A DNA stretch of 40,787 nucleotides from contig JAATGN010000298.1 of assembly GCA_015654615.1 (NCBI GenBank), forward strand, positions 1 through 40,787, read 5' to 3'. Below, piece by piece: positions 8,599 through 36,409 of this stretch (within the stretch, counting starts at the first letter, position 1; each line of letters begins with the position of its first letter). This DNA is from Rhodospirillales bacterium. GTDB lineage: Bacteria; Pseudomonadota; Alphaproteobacteria; Rhodospirillales; Magnetospirillaceae. The translations under genes and the position numbers were made by a program. The notes beneath the pieces were generated by a model. That model was not told the DNA's origin. It ran no database searches and saw only the letters and a program-made list of their open reading frames with translations.

Positions 8599-8651
8599 CC
8601 GGCCATGGGGGCGCGCCGCCGGTCCGGACATCTGCGGCGCGGGTAGGATAT

Positions 8652-8821
8652 CAAGCAACACGGACGGACACGGACAGCCACGGATGGCACGGACGAGCGC
8701 CGCAGGCATGCCCCTCTTCTCCAACCGAATACGGGGGGTGAAGATAGGGAAGAATGCCTGCGGCGCTTTTTCTTAAAATCCGTGTTCGTCCGTGGCTGTC
8801 CGGATCCGTCCGTGTTGCTCA
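8652..8821. repeat. Nested inverted repeat (ACGGACGG/CCGTCCGT type) between nifA and draT
   Basis: The outer arms are about 34-42 bases (AGCAACACGGACGGA... against ...TCCGTCCGTGTTGCT, nearly complementary). The inner arms are GCGCCGCAGGCAT (8698-8710) and ATGCCTGCGGCGC (8754-8766). It fills the 257-bp gap between convergent nifA and draT and could act as a bidirectional transcription stop. A part copy (CCGTGTTCATCCGTGTTGCTCAA) lies at 28559-28581. Read as protein it gives the 'NTDGHGQPR' string seen in several spurious ORFs. Confidence 0.75.
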
Positions 8822-14148: not shown

Positions 14149-14322
14149 TCACCACGAAGGCGCGAAGGAGAGTGAAGAAGATTTTTGCTCTTTATTTTCG
14201 TCATTGCGAGCGAAGCGAAGCAATCCAGAAGCCGGCGGTATGGCTGGATTGCTTCGCTTCGCTCGCAATGACGAAAAAATAGGAATAATTCCTTCTTCCT
14301 GTCCTTCGCGCCTTCGTGGTGA
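14149..14322. repeat. Nested palindrome: 21-bp outer and 34-bp inner perfect inverted repeats
   Basis: The outer arms are 14149-14169 and 14302-14322 (TCACCACGAAGGCGCGAAGGA and its exact complement). The inner arms are 14195-14228 and 14244-14277, 34 bases each, perfect, built on CATTGCGAGCGAAGCGAAGC. The loop is 15 bases. The outer arm type recurs around the GxxExxY remnant at 35771/36186; the inner arm type recurs near 22150 and 28464. The rest of the 13918-14361 gap is the nif promoter region. Confidence 0.85.
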
Positions 14323-20541: not shown

Positions 20542-20967
20542 TCAATTCAAACCGAGCGCGGCCAGGCCGGCCCGGGCGCACGCGAGGTCCTGCTGTTCAC
20601 TGGCCCCCGAGACGCCGATGCCGCCCACCACCACGCCCTCCACCGCGATGGGCAGACCGCCGCCGATCATCACCAGGCGGGGCACTTGCCGCAGGCCGTC
20701 CCGCAAGTCGCGGTCCCCTTGCAGCAACGCCGCCCATTCGCCGCTGGGAAAGCCGAAGCTGGCGGCGGTATAGGCCTTGTCGGTGGCGATGCCGATGGAA
20801 TGCAGGAAGGCTCCCGGGCAGCGCAGGAAGGCCAGCAGATTGCCCCCGGCGTCGACCACCGCGACATTGACGCGCACGCCCAGGGCTTCCGCCGCCTTCA
20901 CCGCCGCGCCGACGGCGGTGAAGGCGGCTTCGGCCGAAAGGGCCAAAGACGGCTGCGTCAATCGCAT
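20542..20967 (-). CDS. GlcG/HbpS-like (DUF336) protein in the meta operon
   Basis: A 141-residue protein of the GlcG/HbpS family (PF03928), shown by 'VRVNVAVVDAGGNLLAFLRCPGA', 'IATDKAYTAASFG' and the glycine-rich 'GGLPIAVEGVVVGGIGVSGASEQQDLACARAGL'. Members have been linked to haem or cobalamin binding or to small-molecule sensing, but many are of unknown role. Its ATG overlaps the stop of the upstream dioxygenase by one base (TGATG), so it is co-translated with xylE copy 2. It stands where classical dmp/xyl operons have no gene (between B and C). A supporting role for the oxygenase iron or ring-cleavage step is possible but unproven. Confidence 0.85.
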   Translation of the reverse strand: MRLTQPSLALSAEAAFTAVGAAVKAAEALGVRVNVAVVDAGGNLLAFLRCPGAFLHSIGIATDKAYTAASFGFPSGEWAALLQGDRDLRDGLRQVPRLVMIGGGLPIAVEGVVVGGIGVSGASEQQDLACARAGLAALGLN

Positions 20968-21887
20968 CAGGTGACCACTGTGAGGAAGCGGTCGTTCAGC
21001 GCCTTCTGGTAATAGAAAATGCCACGGCCGATTTCGTTCTGGTCCCAGGTCCGGAGCGGGTCGTCCGGGTAATAGGTATAGCCGCCGGCATAGACCTCGT
21101 TGCGATTGCCCGAGGGGTCGAAGAAATAGATGGTCTGGCCGCGGGTGACGCCGTGACGGGTCGGACCGATGTCGATCGGCACGCCGTTGCGGATCATCAG
21201 GTCGGCGGCATGGCCGATGGCGTTCCAATCCTCCAGAAAGAAGGCCAGGTGATGGAACTTGCCCGGCTCGGCATGCTTGACGAAGGCGATGTCGTGCGCC
21301 TTGTTCGAGCAGGAAAGCCAAATGGCCAGCACCCCGTCGGGCAACTCGATCTTCTCGGTGAGCTTGAAATCGAGGACCTCGGTAAAGAAGGCCAGCACCT
21401 GCTCGATGTGCGGGCCGTAGAGCAGGCCGTGATCCATGCGGATCGCCCCCATGCCGTGCGGCGCCTGCCGCCAGATGTAGGGATTGTGGACTTCCGGGTG
21501 CTCCGCGGCCGGTTCGATCGCATGATAGAACTCGATGCGATGCCCCGAAGGAATGGCGACGCCGAGACGCCGCCCAACGCCGGGCTGCTGGCCGGCCGGC
21601 ACATGATCGACGGCCAGGCCGAAGTCCCCGATGCGCTTCTCGAACTCCGTCAATGAGGCGTCGCTGTCGACCTTGAAGGCGAACAGGTCCAATCCGGCAT
21701 GATCGGCTTCGCGCAGCACCACGGAATGCCGGTCGAACTCGTCCCAGGCCTTCAGATAGACCCGGCCGTCTTCCCCCCGCGAGACGACGCTGAGGCCGAC
21801 ATAGTCGACGTAATGTTTGAGAGCCGCTTCCATATCGAGAACCCGCAACTGGACGATGCCAGGACGCAGAACACCTGTAATAGCCAT
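20967..21887 (-). CDS. xylE: Catechol 2,3-dioxygenase, copy 2
   Basis: A 306-residue extradiol dioxygenase of the XylE/DmpB type, cleaving catechol next to its hydroxyl groups. Two glyoxalase/VOC modules are present; the Fe(II) ligands are the His of 'RMDHGLLYG', the His pair region 'GKFHHLAF' and the Glu of 'GNRNEVYAGG'. By eye it differs from copy 1 at about 39 of 306 positions (about 87% identity). The ATG at 21887 has GGGAGG six bases upstream; the TTG in the track is not needed. It starts the lower operon, behind its own AT-rich leader with a candidate GntR operator. Confidence 0.95.
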   Translation of the reverse strand: MAITGVLRPGIVQLRVLDMEAALKHYVDYVGLSVVSRGEDGRVYLKAWDEFDRHSVVLREADHAGLDLFAFKVDSDASLTEFEKRIGDFGLAVDHVPAGQQPGVGRRLGVAIPSGHRIEFYHAIEPAAEHPEVHNPYIWRQAPHGMGAIRMDHGLLYGPHIEQVLAFFTEVLDFKLTEKIELPDGVLAIWLSCSNKAHDIAFVKHAEPGKFHHLAFFLEDWNAIGHAADLMIRNGVPIDIGPTRHGVTRGQTIYFFDPSGNRNEVYAGGYTYYPDDPLRTWDQNEIGRGIFYYQKALNDRFLTVVT

Positions 21888-22036: not shown

Positions 22037-22148
22037 ATTTAAAAAGACGGTATTTAAATATAAACTCGCTATATAAAAAAGCCTTGGCCATATTGCTTGT
22101 GACCGTCATTGCGAGTTCCGCACCGGCCGAGGCCGACCCTCCTGGATG

Positions 22149-22242
22149 AAAATGCCGTCACTGCGAGCGAAGCGAAGCAGTCCAGGACAGCCTGGCACTC
22201 TGGATTGCCGCGTCGCTTCGCTCCTCGCAATGACGGCATTTT
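22149..22242. repeat. Imperfect CATTGCGAGCGAAGC-type inverted repeat
   Basis: Arms 22149-22185 and 22200-22242 (AAAATGCCGTCACTGCGAG against CTCGCAATGACGGCATTTT, with small gaps). Partial extra copies flank it (22105-22114; 22250-22268). Same family as the inner arms at 14195 and the pair at 28464. Confidence 0.75.
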
Positions 22243-22279
22243 CCTCTTAGCGAAGCGAAGCAATGACGATGGAGTCCCC

Positions 22280-23200
22280 TCACGTCACCACCGTGAGGAA
22301 ACGGTCGTTCAGCACTTTCTGGTAATAGAAGATGCCGCGGCCGATCTCCGTATGGTCCCAGCACCGCACGGGTTCGTCGGGATAGAAGTGATAACTGCCG
22401 GCAAACACCTCGTTGCGATTGCCCGAAGGATCGAAGAAATAGATGGTCTGGCCGCGGGTGATGCCGTGACGGGTCGGGCCGATGTCGATCGGCACGTCGT
22501 GGCGGATCATCAGGTCGGCGGCATGGCCGACGGCGTTCCAGTCCTCGAGATAGAAGGCCAGGTGATGGAACTTGCCGGGCTCGGCATGCTTGACGAAGGC
22601 GATGTCGTGCGCCTTGTTCGAACAGCTCATCCAGATGCCCAGCAGACCATCCGGCGTATCGACCTTTTCGGTGAGCTGGAAATCGAGAGCCCCTGTGAAG
22701 AAAGCCAGCACCTGTTCGATGTTCGGACCGTAGAGCAGGCCGTGATCCATGCGGATGGCCCCCATGCCGTGCGGCGCCTGCCGCCAGATATAGGGATTGT
22801 GGATCTCCGGATGTTCCTCGGCCGGTTCGATCGCGTGGTAGAGTTCGATGCGATGACCGGAGGCGATGACGACGCCGAGACGCCGCCCGACGCCGGGCTG
22901 CTGGCCGGCCGGCACATGATCGACGGCCAGGCCGAAATCCTCGATGCGTTTCTCGAAGCGATCGAGCGAGGCCTCGCTGTCGACCTTGAAGGCGAACAGA
23001 TCCATTCCGGCATGGTCGGCTTCGCGCAGCACCACGGAATGCCGGTCGAACTCGTCCCAGGCCTTCAGATAGACCCGGCCGTCCTCCCCCCGCGAGACGA
23101 CGTCGAGGCCGACATGGTCGGCGTAATGTTTGAGCGCGGCCTCCATATCGAGAACCCGCAACTGGACGATGCCAGGGCGCAGAACACCGGTCATGGCCAT
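22280..23200 (-). CDS. xylE: Catechol 2,3-dioxygenase, copy 1
   Basis: A second 306-residue extradiol dioxygenase with the same iron ligands ('RMDHGLLYG', 'GKFHHLAF', 'GNRNEVFAGS') as copy 2. It stands at the dmpB position, directly after the chloroplast-type ferredoxin, whose 3' end overlaps its start by 10 bases. The ATG at 23200 has GAGGGAG seven bases upstream. Changes relative to copy 2 gather in the C-terminal 40 residues and around residues 170-190, so the copies may differ in substrate range or in resistance to inactivation. The pair probably arose by tandem duplication. Confidence 0.95.
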   Translation of the reverse strand: MAMTGVLRPGIVQLRVLDMEAALKHYADHVGLDVVSRGEDGRVYLKAWDEFDRHSVVLREADHAGMDLFAFKVDSEASLDRFEKRIEDFGLAVDHVPAGQQPGVGRRLGVVIASGHRIELYHAIEPAEEHPEIHNPYIWRQAPHGMGAIRMDHGLLYGPNIEQVLAFFTGALDFQLTEKVDTPDGLLGIWMSCSNKAHDIAFVKHAEPGKFHHLAFYLEDWNAVGHAADLMIRHDVPIDIGPTRHGITRGQTIYFFDPSGNRNEVFAGSYHFYPDEPVRCWDHTEIGRGIFYYQKVLNDRFLTVVT

Positions 23201-28463: not shown

Positions 28464-28543
28464 CCGTCATTGCGAGCGCCAGCGAAGCAATCCAGGATCC
28501 CGCCGCTGTTGCTGGATTGCTTCGCTGGCGCTCGCAATGACGG
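28464..28543. repeat. Perfect 32-bp inverted repeat pair
   Basis: Arms 28464-28495 and 28512-28543 are exact reverse complements (beginning CCGTCATTGCGAGCGCCAGC), with a 16-base loop. Family of the inner arms at 14195-14277, with a different centre (GCGCCAGC for GCGAAGC). Confidence 0.85.
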
Positions 28544-28558
28544 CGTCGGGCCCCTATC

Positions 28559-28661
28559 CGTGTTCATCCGTGTTGCTCAAATATCTTGCCCGCGCCGCAG
28601 GTCGTCGGGCAGCGGGCCTTCGCGCCCGCCTTTTTCTTAGAGGCGCGGGCCTCCGCGCCCG
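28559..28661. repeat. Composite of two dispersed repeat types after the DUF1329 gene
   Basis: CCGTGTTCATCCGTGTTGCTCAA (28559-28581) matches one arm end of the nifA-draT repeat. GCGGGCCTTCGCGCCCG (28612-28628, followed by CCTTTTTCTT) and GCGGGCCTCCGCGCCCG (28645-28661) match the 2194 element. The hairpin plus T-run at 28612 could terminate plus-strand transcription. Confidence 0.6.
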
Positions 28662-35645: not shown

Positions 35646-35763
35646 GTTCCACCTTCGGCCCGGCTCCGCTTTTCGACGTTTGCCGGGAGGGGCGTCCAGG
35701 GCAATCGCTCGAACGAATATAGAACATGGGTTAAAGACGCAGCCAAATAGTGGTATTGGAGAG

Positions 35764-36179
35764 ATGTCTCACCACGAAGGCGCGAAGGCACGAAGAAATT
35801 GGAAGGCGATAAAGAATTCGACCCGATCAGCCGGCAGGTGATCGGGCTGGCAATTGAGGTGCATAAGACCTTGGGTGCTCGAATCGGCGTATGAGCAATG
35901 TCTTTGCCACGAGCTTGCACGACACGATCTCGCGTTTCGTCGCCAGGTGCCGGTTCCGGTAAATTATAAAGGACTTCAACTTGACTGCAGCTACCGGCTC
36001 GACATCGTCGTTGACGAATGCATTGATTATCGAGATGAAGGCTATCGATAAGTTATTGCCTGTGCATAGCGCACAGTTGCTAACGTATTTAAAATTGACC
36101 GGCATTGGCGTCGGCCTTCTATATCAATTTCCATACGGTTGTCCTTCGTGATGGGCTGCGTCGGATAGTATTATCATAA
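35764..36179 (+). pseudogene. Decayed GxxExxY family gene (PD-(D/E)XK-like)
   Basis: Pieces of one GxxExxY protein follow each other in different frames: 'ISRQVIGLAIEVHKTLG', then '[32 protein letters not shown]...[12 protein letters not shown]', then '[35 protein letters not shown]', and finally '[12 protein letters not shown]' before TAA. At least four frame changes separate them (near 35815, 35876, 36020 and 36135), so no product is made. The D...EMK pair matches the nuclease-like core of the family. The leader 'SHHEGAKARR' is simply the translated left repeat arm. GC content is lower than in neighbouring genes. Confidence 0.85.
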
Positions 36180-36214
36180 CTTCTTATTTCTTCGTGCCTT
36201 CGCGCCTTCGTGGT
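35771..36214. repeat. 29-bp perfect inverted repeat around the GxxExxY remnant
   Basis: ACCACGAAGGCGCGAAGGCA... (35771-35799) and its exact complement (36186-36214). The same core (ACCACGAAGGCGCGAAGG) forms the outer arms of the nested palindrome at 14149-14322, which has no gene inside. Confidence 0.85.
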
Positions 36215-36409
36215 TCATGTCATCGCTCTCCCGATATCGCCGGAGCGGACGCCTCATGGAAATCGCCAGCTCCGCTCCAATTGAAATCATTCGAGCGATT
36301 GCCCTGGAGGGGCGTCTCTGCGGGTTGACCGCGGCGCGGCGATGACTCACCATTGGAACAGGTCCGAAGCGGGCCGGGACGACCGACATCGGATGGAAAG
36401 GAAAGCGTG

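Follow-up and report, generated by a model that had tools for sequence, protein, structure and literature searches.

The window, i.e. the whole stretch of 40,787 nucleotides that was analyzed, carries a palindrome without a gene at positions 14149-14322, with an IscA/ErpA-like gene (minus strand) on one side and an alpha/beta hydrolase gene (plus strand) on the other. Its outer arms of 21 bp (TCACCACGAAGGCGCGAAGGA) are perfect reverse complements and consist of the tandem heptamers CACGAAG/CGCGAAG. They enclose a second inverted pair of 34 bp (TTTTCGTCATTGCGAGCGAAGCGAAGCAATCCAG), which is likewise perfect and has a loop of 15 nt. As single-stranded DNA, positions 14144-14327 fold into one near-continuous hairpin of -83.4 kcal/mol; shuffled sequences reached -25.2 ± 3.3 kcal/mol (native z = -17.9). 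The features of the window are:

8654-8684, plus strand: left arm of a second gene-less element, heptamer CACGGAC (type-B class), matches the arms on contig C213
8789-8819, minus strand: right arm of the second gene-less element, inverted partner of 8654-8684
14149-14169, plus strand: left heptamer arm of the gene-less element, type A, CACGAAG-CGCGAAG
14195-14228, plus strand: left half of the nested palindrome, fits the class of CGTC-tagged REPs
14244-14277, minus strand: right half of the nested CGTC-REP-like dimer, perfect 34-bp inverted copy
14302-14322, minus strand: right heptamer arm of the gene-less element, perfect inverted copy of 14149-14169
28556-28577, minus strand: lone type-B heptamer arm CACGGATGAACACGGAT, just downstream of a CGTC-REP-like dimer
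35687-35696, no strand: 10-bp direct repeat GAGGGGCGTC, left target duplication
35697-35716, plus strand: outer 20-bp terminal inverted repeat CAGGGCAATCGCTCGAACGA of a 610-bp unit carrying the GxxExxY element
35771-35805, plus strand: left heptamer arm of the GxxExxY-bearing element (ACCACGAAGGCGCGAAGGCACGAAG...), carries the 18-nt core
35872-36130, plus strand: remnant of a GxxExxY (TIGR04256) gene with a frameshift plus stops
36180-36214, minus strand: right heptamer arm of the GxxExxY-bearing element, inverted partner of 35771-35805
36287-36306, minus strand: outer terminal inverted repeat at the other end of the 610-bp unit
36307-36316, no strand: 10-bp direct repeat GAGGGGCGTC, right target duplication

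The arm family and its nested palindromes in the host genome

An earlier note, made from sequence alone, had proposed that the outer arms at 14149 share the core of a repeat which brackets a GxxExxY remnant elsewhere in the window, and that they enclose a perfect 34-bp inverted pair from another repeat family. The first claim held: the same 18-nt core is present at both places, and the arms around the remnant are 94% complementary. The remnant itself matched TIGR04256 with 51.7 bits over 35872-36024, and a match on contig C294 scored 148.9 bits; the family test (TIGR04256/PF13366, curated cut-off 35) was thus met. Translated forms of the repeat, which the note had also reported, were confirmed as HHEGAKAR at the gene-less hairpin (HHEGAKE/D at 14149) and at the remnant.

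The perfect inner pair and its distinctness from the outer arms were confirmed as well, with the correction that it fits a known class. It displays a CGTC tag, a ATTGCGAG...GAAGCAAT stem, a CCA tail and a head-to-head dimer arrangement in an alphaproteobacterial host. CGTC-tagged REPs are common in alphaproteobacteria, occur mostly as head-to-head dimers and have no known transposase (PMC3733652). Examined for these features, with a stem of 8-9 bp and the lack of a transposase among the criteria, CGTCATTGCGAGCGAAGCGAAGCAATCCAG in its perfect inverted pair met all of them; the assignment rests on comparison by eye with the published description, and the family consensus was not aligned. The inner palindrome is a repeat distinct from the outer arms, and the class it fits is reported to lack a partner transposase. 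Such nesting is not unique to this site, as 4 of the 12 distinct gene-less elements that were examined contain a CGTC-REP. Over about 160 kb of non-redundant host sequence, half-sites numbered 5.7 per kb inside gene-less hairpins vs 0.04 outside, i.e. about 150-fold. The background was not restricted to intergenic DNA, and we estimate a lower real excess of perhaps ten- to fifteenfold. The enrichment suggests that palindromes land in or beside palindromes. A cluster of degenerate CGTC-REP-like half-sites was also seen at 22094-22260, away from heptamer arms. At 28464-28577 a CGTC-REP-like dimer is followed directly by the lone type-B arm, and the sequence outside this arm resembles, in inverted orientation, that outside the arm at 8615-8680. 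Separately, two direct repeat pairs (20962-21887 and 22275-23200; 87-93% identical, spacing 1313 bp) may point to a tandem gene duplication.

The host genome is a metagenome-assembled genome (MAG) of 5.7 Mb in 466 contigs (95% complete, 7% contamination). Allowing up to 2 mismatches, the 18-nt arm core occurred 25 times genome-wide and its reversed control not at all; a looser pattern of two heptamers CRCRRAG with an 8-nt period matched 70 places, its reversed control 5. Adjacent arms formed 22 pairs, every one of them convergent, and no other orientation was observed. Twenty of these 22 pairs are gene-less, with spans of 71-222 bp, and in their interiors no GxxExxY remnant could be detected. 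Gene-less elements terminate in palindromic sequence like AATTCACCAC...GTGGTGAATT. Some of these elements share homologous interiors (L181 and L200, 88% over 73 nt), which indicates that gene-less units were copied as such. Other GxxExxY genes of the host are bracketed by other heptamers, CACGGAG on C294 and CACGGAC on C213, and the C213 arms, which enclose a type-B gene, match the gene-less pair at 8654-8819 of the window. The gene-less twin at 14149-14322 is real and one of many copies.

The GxxExxY copy in the window has a history of its own. It lies in a 610-bp unit with a 20-bp terminal inverted repeat (TIR, CAGGGCAATCGCTCGAAYGA) of which two genomic copies exist; the second is 95% identical and split over contigs C152 and C425. 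Each copy has its own 10-bp duplication, GAGGGGCGTC in the window and CGGATCCCGG in the second copy. With 0 mismatches the TIR core was found solely in these two copies. The hallmark of a DDE transposon or MITE, a target duplication of fixed length at the termini, was met for the outer 610-bp unit and not for the heptamer arms; it is the sole clean transposition footprint in the window. This copy last moved as part of the 610-bp unit, apparently by a conventional transposase acting on the outer TIRs.

Inverted tandem heptamers bracket GxxExxY genes according to protein subtype

Here we examined whether bracketing by inverted arms is a general property of GxxExxY genes. From named genomes 80 loci were collected, 77 of which were testable, and each was scored by the best inverted match of its upstream with its downstream flank. 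The sample included Alpha-, Beta- and Gammaproteobacteria, Zetaproteobacteria, Planctomycetota, Acidobacteriota, Bacteroidota, Chloroflexota, Cyanobacteria, Verrucomicrobiota, Nitrospinota, KSB1 and two archaea, more than 12 phyla overall. The median best match was 19, and 73% of the 77 loci scored at least 15 vs 0.4% of 265 shifted stretches from the same contigs. A chance origin of the arms was rejected by these shifted stretches and by the reversed controls in the host genome (0 vs 25 and 5 vs 70). Most arms consist of 2-4 tandem heptamers with spacers of 1-4 nt. In 76 type-A loci the spacer pattern agreed in 88% within loci and in 27% across loci, and the within-locus arm match was above all 5,000 permutations. 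In 12 type-B loci the within-locus excess was smaller and not above every permutation. This demonstrated that arms vary between loci, yet match within a locus.

Mismatches within arm pairs split evenly into 144 that would be G-U and 143 that would be A-C on the sense strand. Because of this there is no sign of selection on a sense-strand RNA stem, and given this symmetry the palindrome is likely a feature of the DNA. RNA-stem selection as the main model was rejected in the absence of a G-U asymmetry.

Two types of GxxExxY protein were distinguished, A (LLESAYEECL...YRLDLLV) and B (FLEKVYENAL...GEYFADLVV). After removal of duplicates, type A was accompanied by heptamers CRCRRAG, ending in G, in 103/103 called loci and type B by CRCRRAT/C, ending in T or C, in 26/26; 32 loci had no call. 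Both subtypes, each with its own heptamer, occur side by side in single genomes (G025, G160 and the host genome). Therefore, the subtype rule does not merely reflect host lineage. Joint inheritance of the gene with its arms as a single unit would also yield this rule. A third kind of GxxExxY (FEVYREMGCGFLEAVYQECL; L266, L267, L279) was observed without heptamer arms and is perhaps not part of a mobile element.

The protein has an invariant D62 and E72-x-K74 and a conserved Q86-x3-Y90, and it matched Pfam PDDEXK_3 at 1.3e-42. The AlphaFold model was confident (pLDDT 95). The best PDB folds were SSO0001, which we take to be a Cas4 nuclease, lambda exonuclease, Bax1 and the Holliday-junction resolvase Hjc, all of them weak (E >= 0.02). 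GxxExxY is thus predicted to be a small nuclease of the PD-(D/E)XK fold, a prediction which rests on the model and on weak fold matches. In the six closest pairs dN/dS was 0.03-0.28 (median 0.24); accordingly the protein is under purifying selection. PADLOC returned marginal hits only.

Arm number, GxxExxY genes and signs of mobility

Next to position and subtype, the number of arms was compared with the presence of the gene. In a phylum panel of 299 genomes at least four type-A arms were present in 30/58 genomes with GxxExxY vs 14/241 others (odds ratio 17). Much of this association came from one family (f28), and the within-family permutation gave p of about 0.01. From near-identical loci in named Zetaproteobacteria records we take this family of 74 genomes to be the Mariprofundaceae. 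Here the type-B arms numbered 15 in the median in the 15 genomes with a type-B gene and 0 in the 59 without (p = 2e-8). The type-A gene had no effect on them (p = 0.15; in the regression, t was 8.4 for the type-B gene and 1.3 for the type-A gene). Permutation within genera reached the observed association in 0/20,000 cases, also when four hits were subtracted for each type-B gene. Up to 85 type-B arm hits accompany just a few genes. For type-A arms the link to the type-A gene was weaker (p = 0.007), and that to the type-B gene was of similar strength. Plentiful type-A arms persist in eight genomes of the family in which no gene was detected; several of these genomes are incomplete MAGs.

These data answer the earlier note in two respects. 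It had named an abundance of repeats independent of the gene as the outcome which would refute it; this was tested and not met, given the odds ratio of 17 and the link of type-B arms to the type-B gene within genera. Its comparison of a gene-bearing copy plus solo inverted pairs with RAYTs and REP doublets is supported; cleavage or movement of the arms by GxxExxY remains an inference. The gene-less twin is thus linked to GxxExxY by position, subtype and genome-wide number, i.e. by association.

The most arm-rich genome without a GxxExxY match (G156, family f47) had 165 type-A arm hits. Its reversed control was also high (38), and low-complexity arrays may contribute. A panel for S23, the protein encoded in intervening sequences of rRNA, matched 51 genomes including this one, but here at sub-threshold scores, and S23 does not clearly explain its arms.

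Several loci bear on mobility. Homology between gene-bearing elements on different contigs can stop at the outer edge of the arm (L026 vs L095). Elements are also located within trp operons (L037, L149, L134); in Mariprofundaceae they lie between trpD and trpC, in Methylotenera between trpE and trpG, the gene names being inferred from the translations. The state of a type-B element at one orthologous Mariprofundus locus (L295-L321) differs between genomes: G025 has it intact and G017 almost intact, in G048, G184 and G160 it is decayed, and G112, G021, G044 and G009 lack it. The type-A arm pair that G124 and G132 have at this locus surrounds what is left of a type-B GxxExxY gene, an arrangement not accounted for by simple transposition of an A element. 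Extra type-B arm pairs were seen nested in the decayed element of G184 and G160. An exact pre-insertion sequence was not found at this locus, just presence, absence and decay. No target duplication was detected at heptamer arms, where flank matches were like those of swapped controls. As usual vehicles, plasmids were rejected (8 of 72,556 plasmids with each of two queries), and so were phages (one IMG/VR contig with a type-B alignment).

Proposed dispersal by GxxExxY and its alternatives

On balance, and by a modest margin only, we favor dispersal by GxxExxY as the best single explanation of 14149-14322, which then is a gene-less, probably non-autonomous copy. This rests on association; binding, cleavage, movement in trans and the copy mechanism are inferred. 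The autonomous form would consist of a tandem-heptamer arm, the GxxExxY gene and an inverted tandem-heptamer arm. The protein would recognize the heptamer arms of its own subtype as DNA, be it as duplex, hairpin or cruciform, and nick or cut there. Repair or replication would then copy the arm-bounded DNA into new intergenic sites. For the spread of gene-less pairs, a resident GxxExxY of matching subtype would act in trans, just as REPIN doublets depend on RAYTs. The hairpin loop may be a favored landing place for other palindromes, here the CGTC-REP-like dimer.

The closest known parallel are REPs and REPINs with their RAYTs (TnpA_REP; REPtrons). There as here, inverted repeats flank a gene and gene-less convergent pairs are dispersed, and a gene subtype is paired with a repeat type (103/103 and 26/26 loci, with type-B arm number following the type-B gene); both likenesses were met when tested. 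Further, the location is intergenic and no target duplication is seen. Two other tests were not met: RAYTs are HUH/Y1 tyrosine transposases, whereas GxxExxY has the predicted PD-(D/E)XK fold, and GTAG-tagged stem-loops of 20-40 bp stand against tandem heptamers without GTAG in the listed arms. Also in difference to this system, GxxExxY genes are present in many phyla and in archaea. The arm system thus resembles RAYT/REPIN in its inferred way of working and is not a member of it, because enzyme fold and tag differ.

A second parallel are rRNA intervening sequences with an S23 (23S_rRNA_IVP) ORF, where a small ORF of about 120 codons also lies between inverted tandem heptamers. The S23 protein, however, is a four-helix bundle, the heptamers are GTAGGCA, GTGATTT and similar, and the known examples reside within 23S rRNA and are removed from the RNA by RNase III. 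Among ten S23 (PF05635) loci (L203-L212) seven were bracketed by inverted tandem heptamers with a score of at least 15 (GTAGGCA, GGCTTA., GTGATTT, TAGTGAG). In the host genome no PF05635 match was found, the encoded protein being GxxExxY, and no Rfam rRNA matched the window or 14 element loci; neither the ORF nor the location test was met. The S23 parallel is a possible lead and not a tested membership. Finally, Xanthomonas genomes contain 70-75 convergent pairs of tandem GGGAATC heptamers each (PMC4692102). They share the convergent arrangement of tandem heptamers, but the heptamer is another one and no partner gene has been proposed.

Three alternatives were considered. First, gene-less pairs may be relics which lost their interior, and the element may spread as a whole by co-inheritance or horizontal transfer and not in trans. 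The graded decay of type-B elements at the Mariprofundus locus supports this, absent target duplications fit old insertions, and the concordance of subtype and heptamer fits co-inheritance. Against it, 20/22 pairs in the host are gene-less without a detectable gene remnant, some interiors are mutually homologous, and up to 85 type-B arm hits stand beside few genes. We consider this alternative unlikely. Second, the arms may constitute a structured RNA or an intervening sequence that is cut by RNase III, without DNA mobility driven by GxxExxY. In favor is the intervening sequence in Coxiella 23S rRNA, in which GACAGAT heptamers precede the S23 ORF and which is excised by RNase III (PMC4990558), as is the inverted heptamer architecture shared by S23 genes elsewhere (7/10). 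Yet arm mismatches are symmetric (144 of the G-U type vs 143 of the A-C type), no Rfam family, rRNA included, matches the window or the 14 element loci, the examined sites are intergenic or between operon genes and not in rRNA, and gene-less copies track the gene genome-wide. This too is improbable. Third, an unrelated transposase may move the palindromes with GxxExxY as a passenger or as a gene that inserts preferentially into palindromes, as the TIRs and 10-bp duplications of the window's GxxExxY unit, typical of a DDE-type transposase, and the CGTC-REPs nested in the same hairpins without a partner gene might suggest; this is very unlikely, since a passenger would not match its heptamer by subtype in 129/129 called loci, nor make type-B arms depend on the type-B gene within genera, and the exact TIR core is confined to the two copies of the 610-bp unit.

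A bolder reading goes beyond the favored dispersal by GxxExxY. GxxExxY proteins would be the first PD-(D/E)XK nucleases dedicated to the dispersal of palindromes; they would form cross-phylum mobile elements in which subtypes read tandem-heptamer arms and gene-less hairpins spread in trans, with the S23 rRNA intervening sequences as a sister branch that has another protein and other heptamers. Taking all of these parts together, we lean slightly against it at present. If true, it would also explain convergent heptamer repeats that lack a partner, for instance in Xanthomonas.

In the open-access literature searched no paper describes these repeats with GxxExxY or contains the arm sequences looked for; GxxExxY is rarely named there, in one paper merely as a neighboring domain and not with repeats. 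This is a widespread and apparently undescribed family of palindromic elements. GxxExxY is annotated in many genomes and has no known function. The arms now provide a concrete substrate which can be tested, together with a specificity rule, the last heptamer base being G for type A and T or C for type B. GxxExxY thereby gains the position of a partner for a large class of orphan palindromes. Through the S23 parallel, the long-standing puzzle of rRNA intervening sequences would become open to the same assays. Should the nuclease indeed spread the arms, an enzyme fold other than that of a transposase would have evolved a REPIN-like dispersal.
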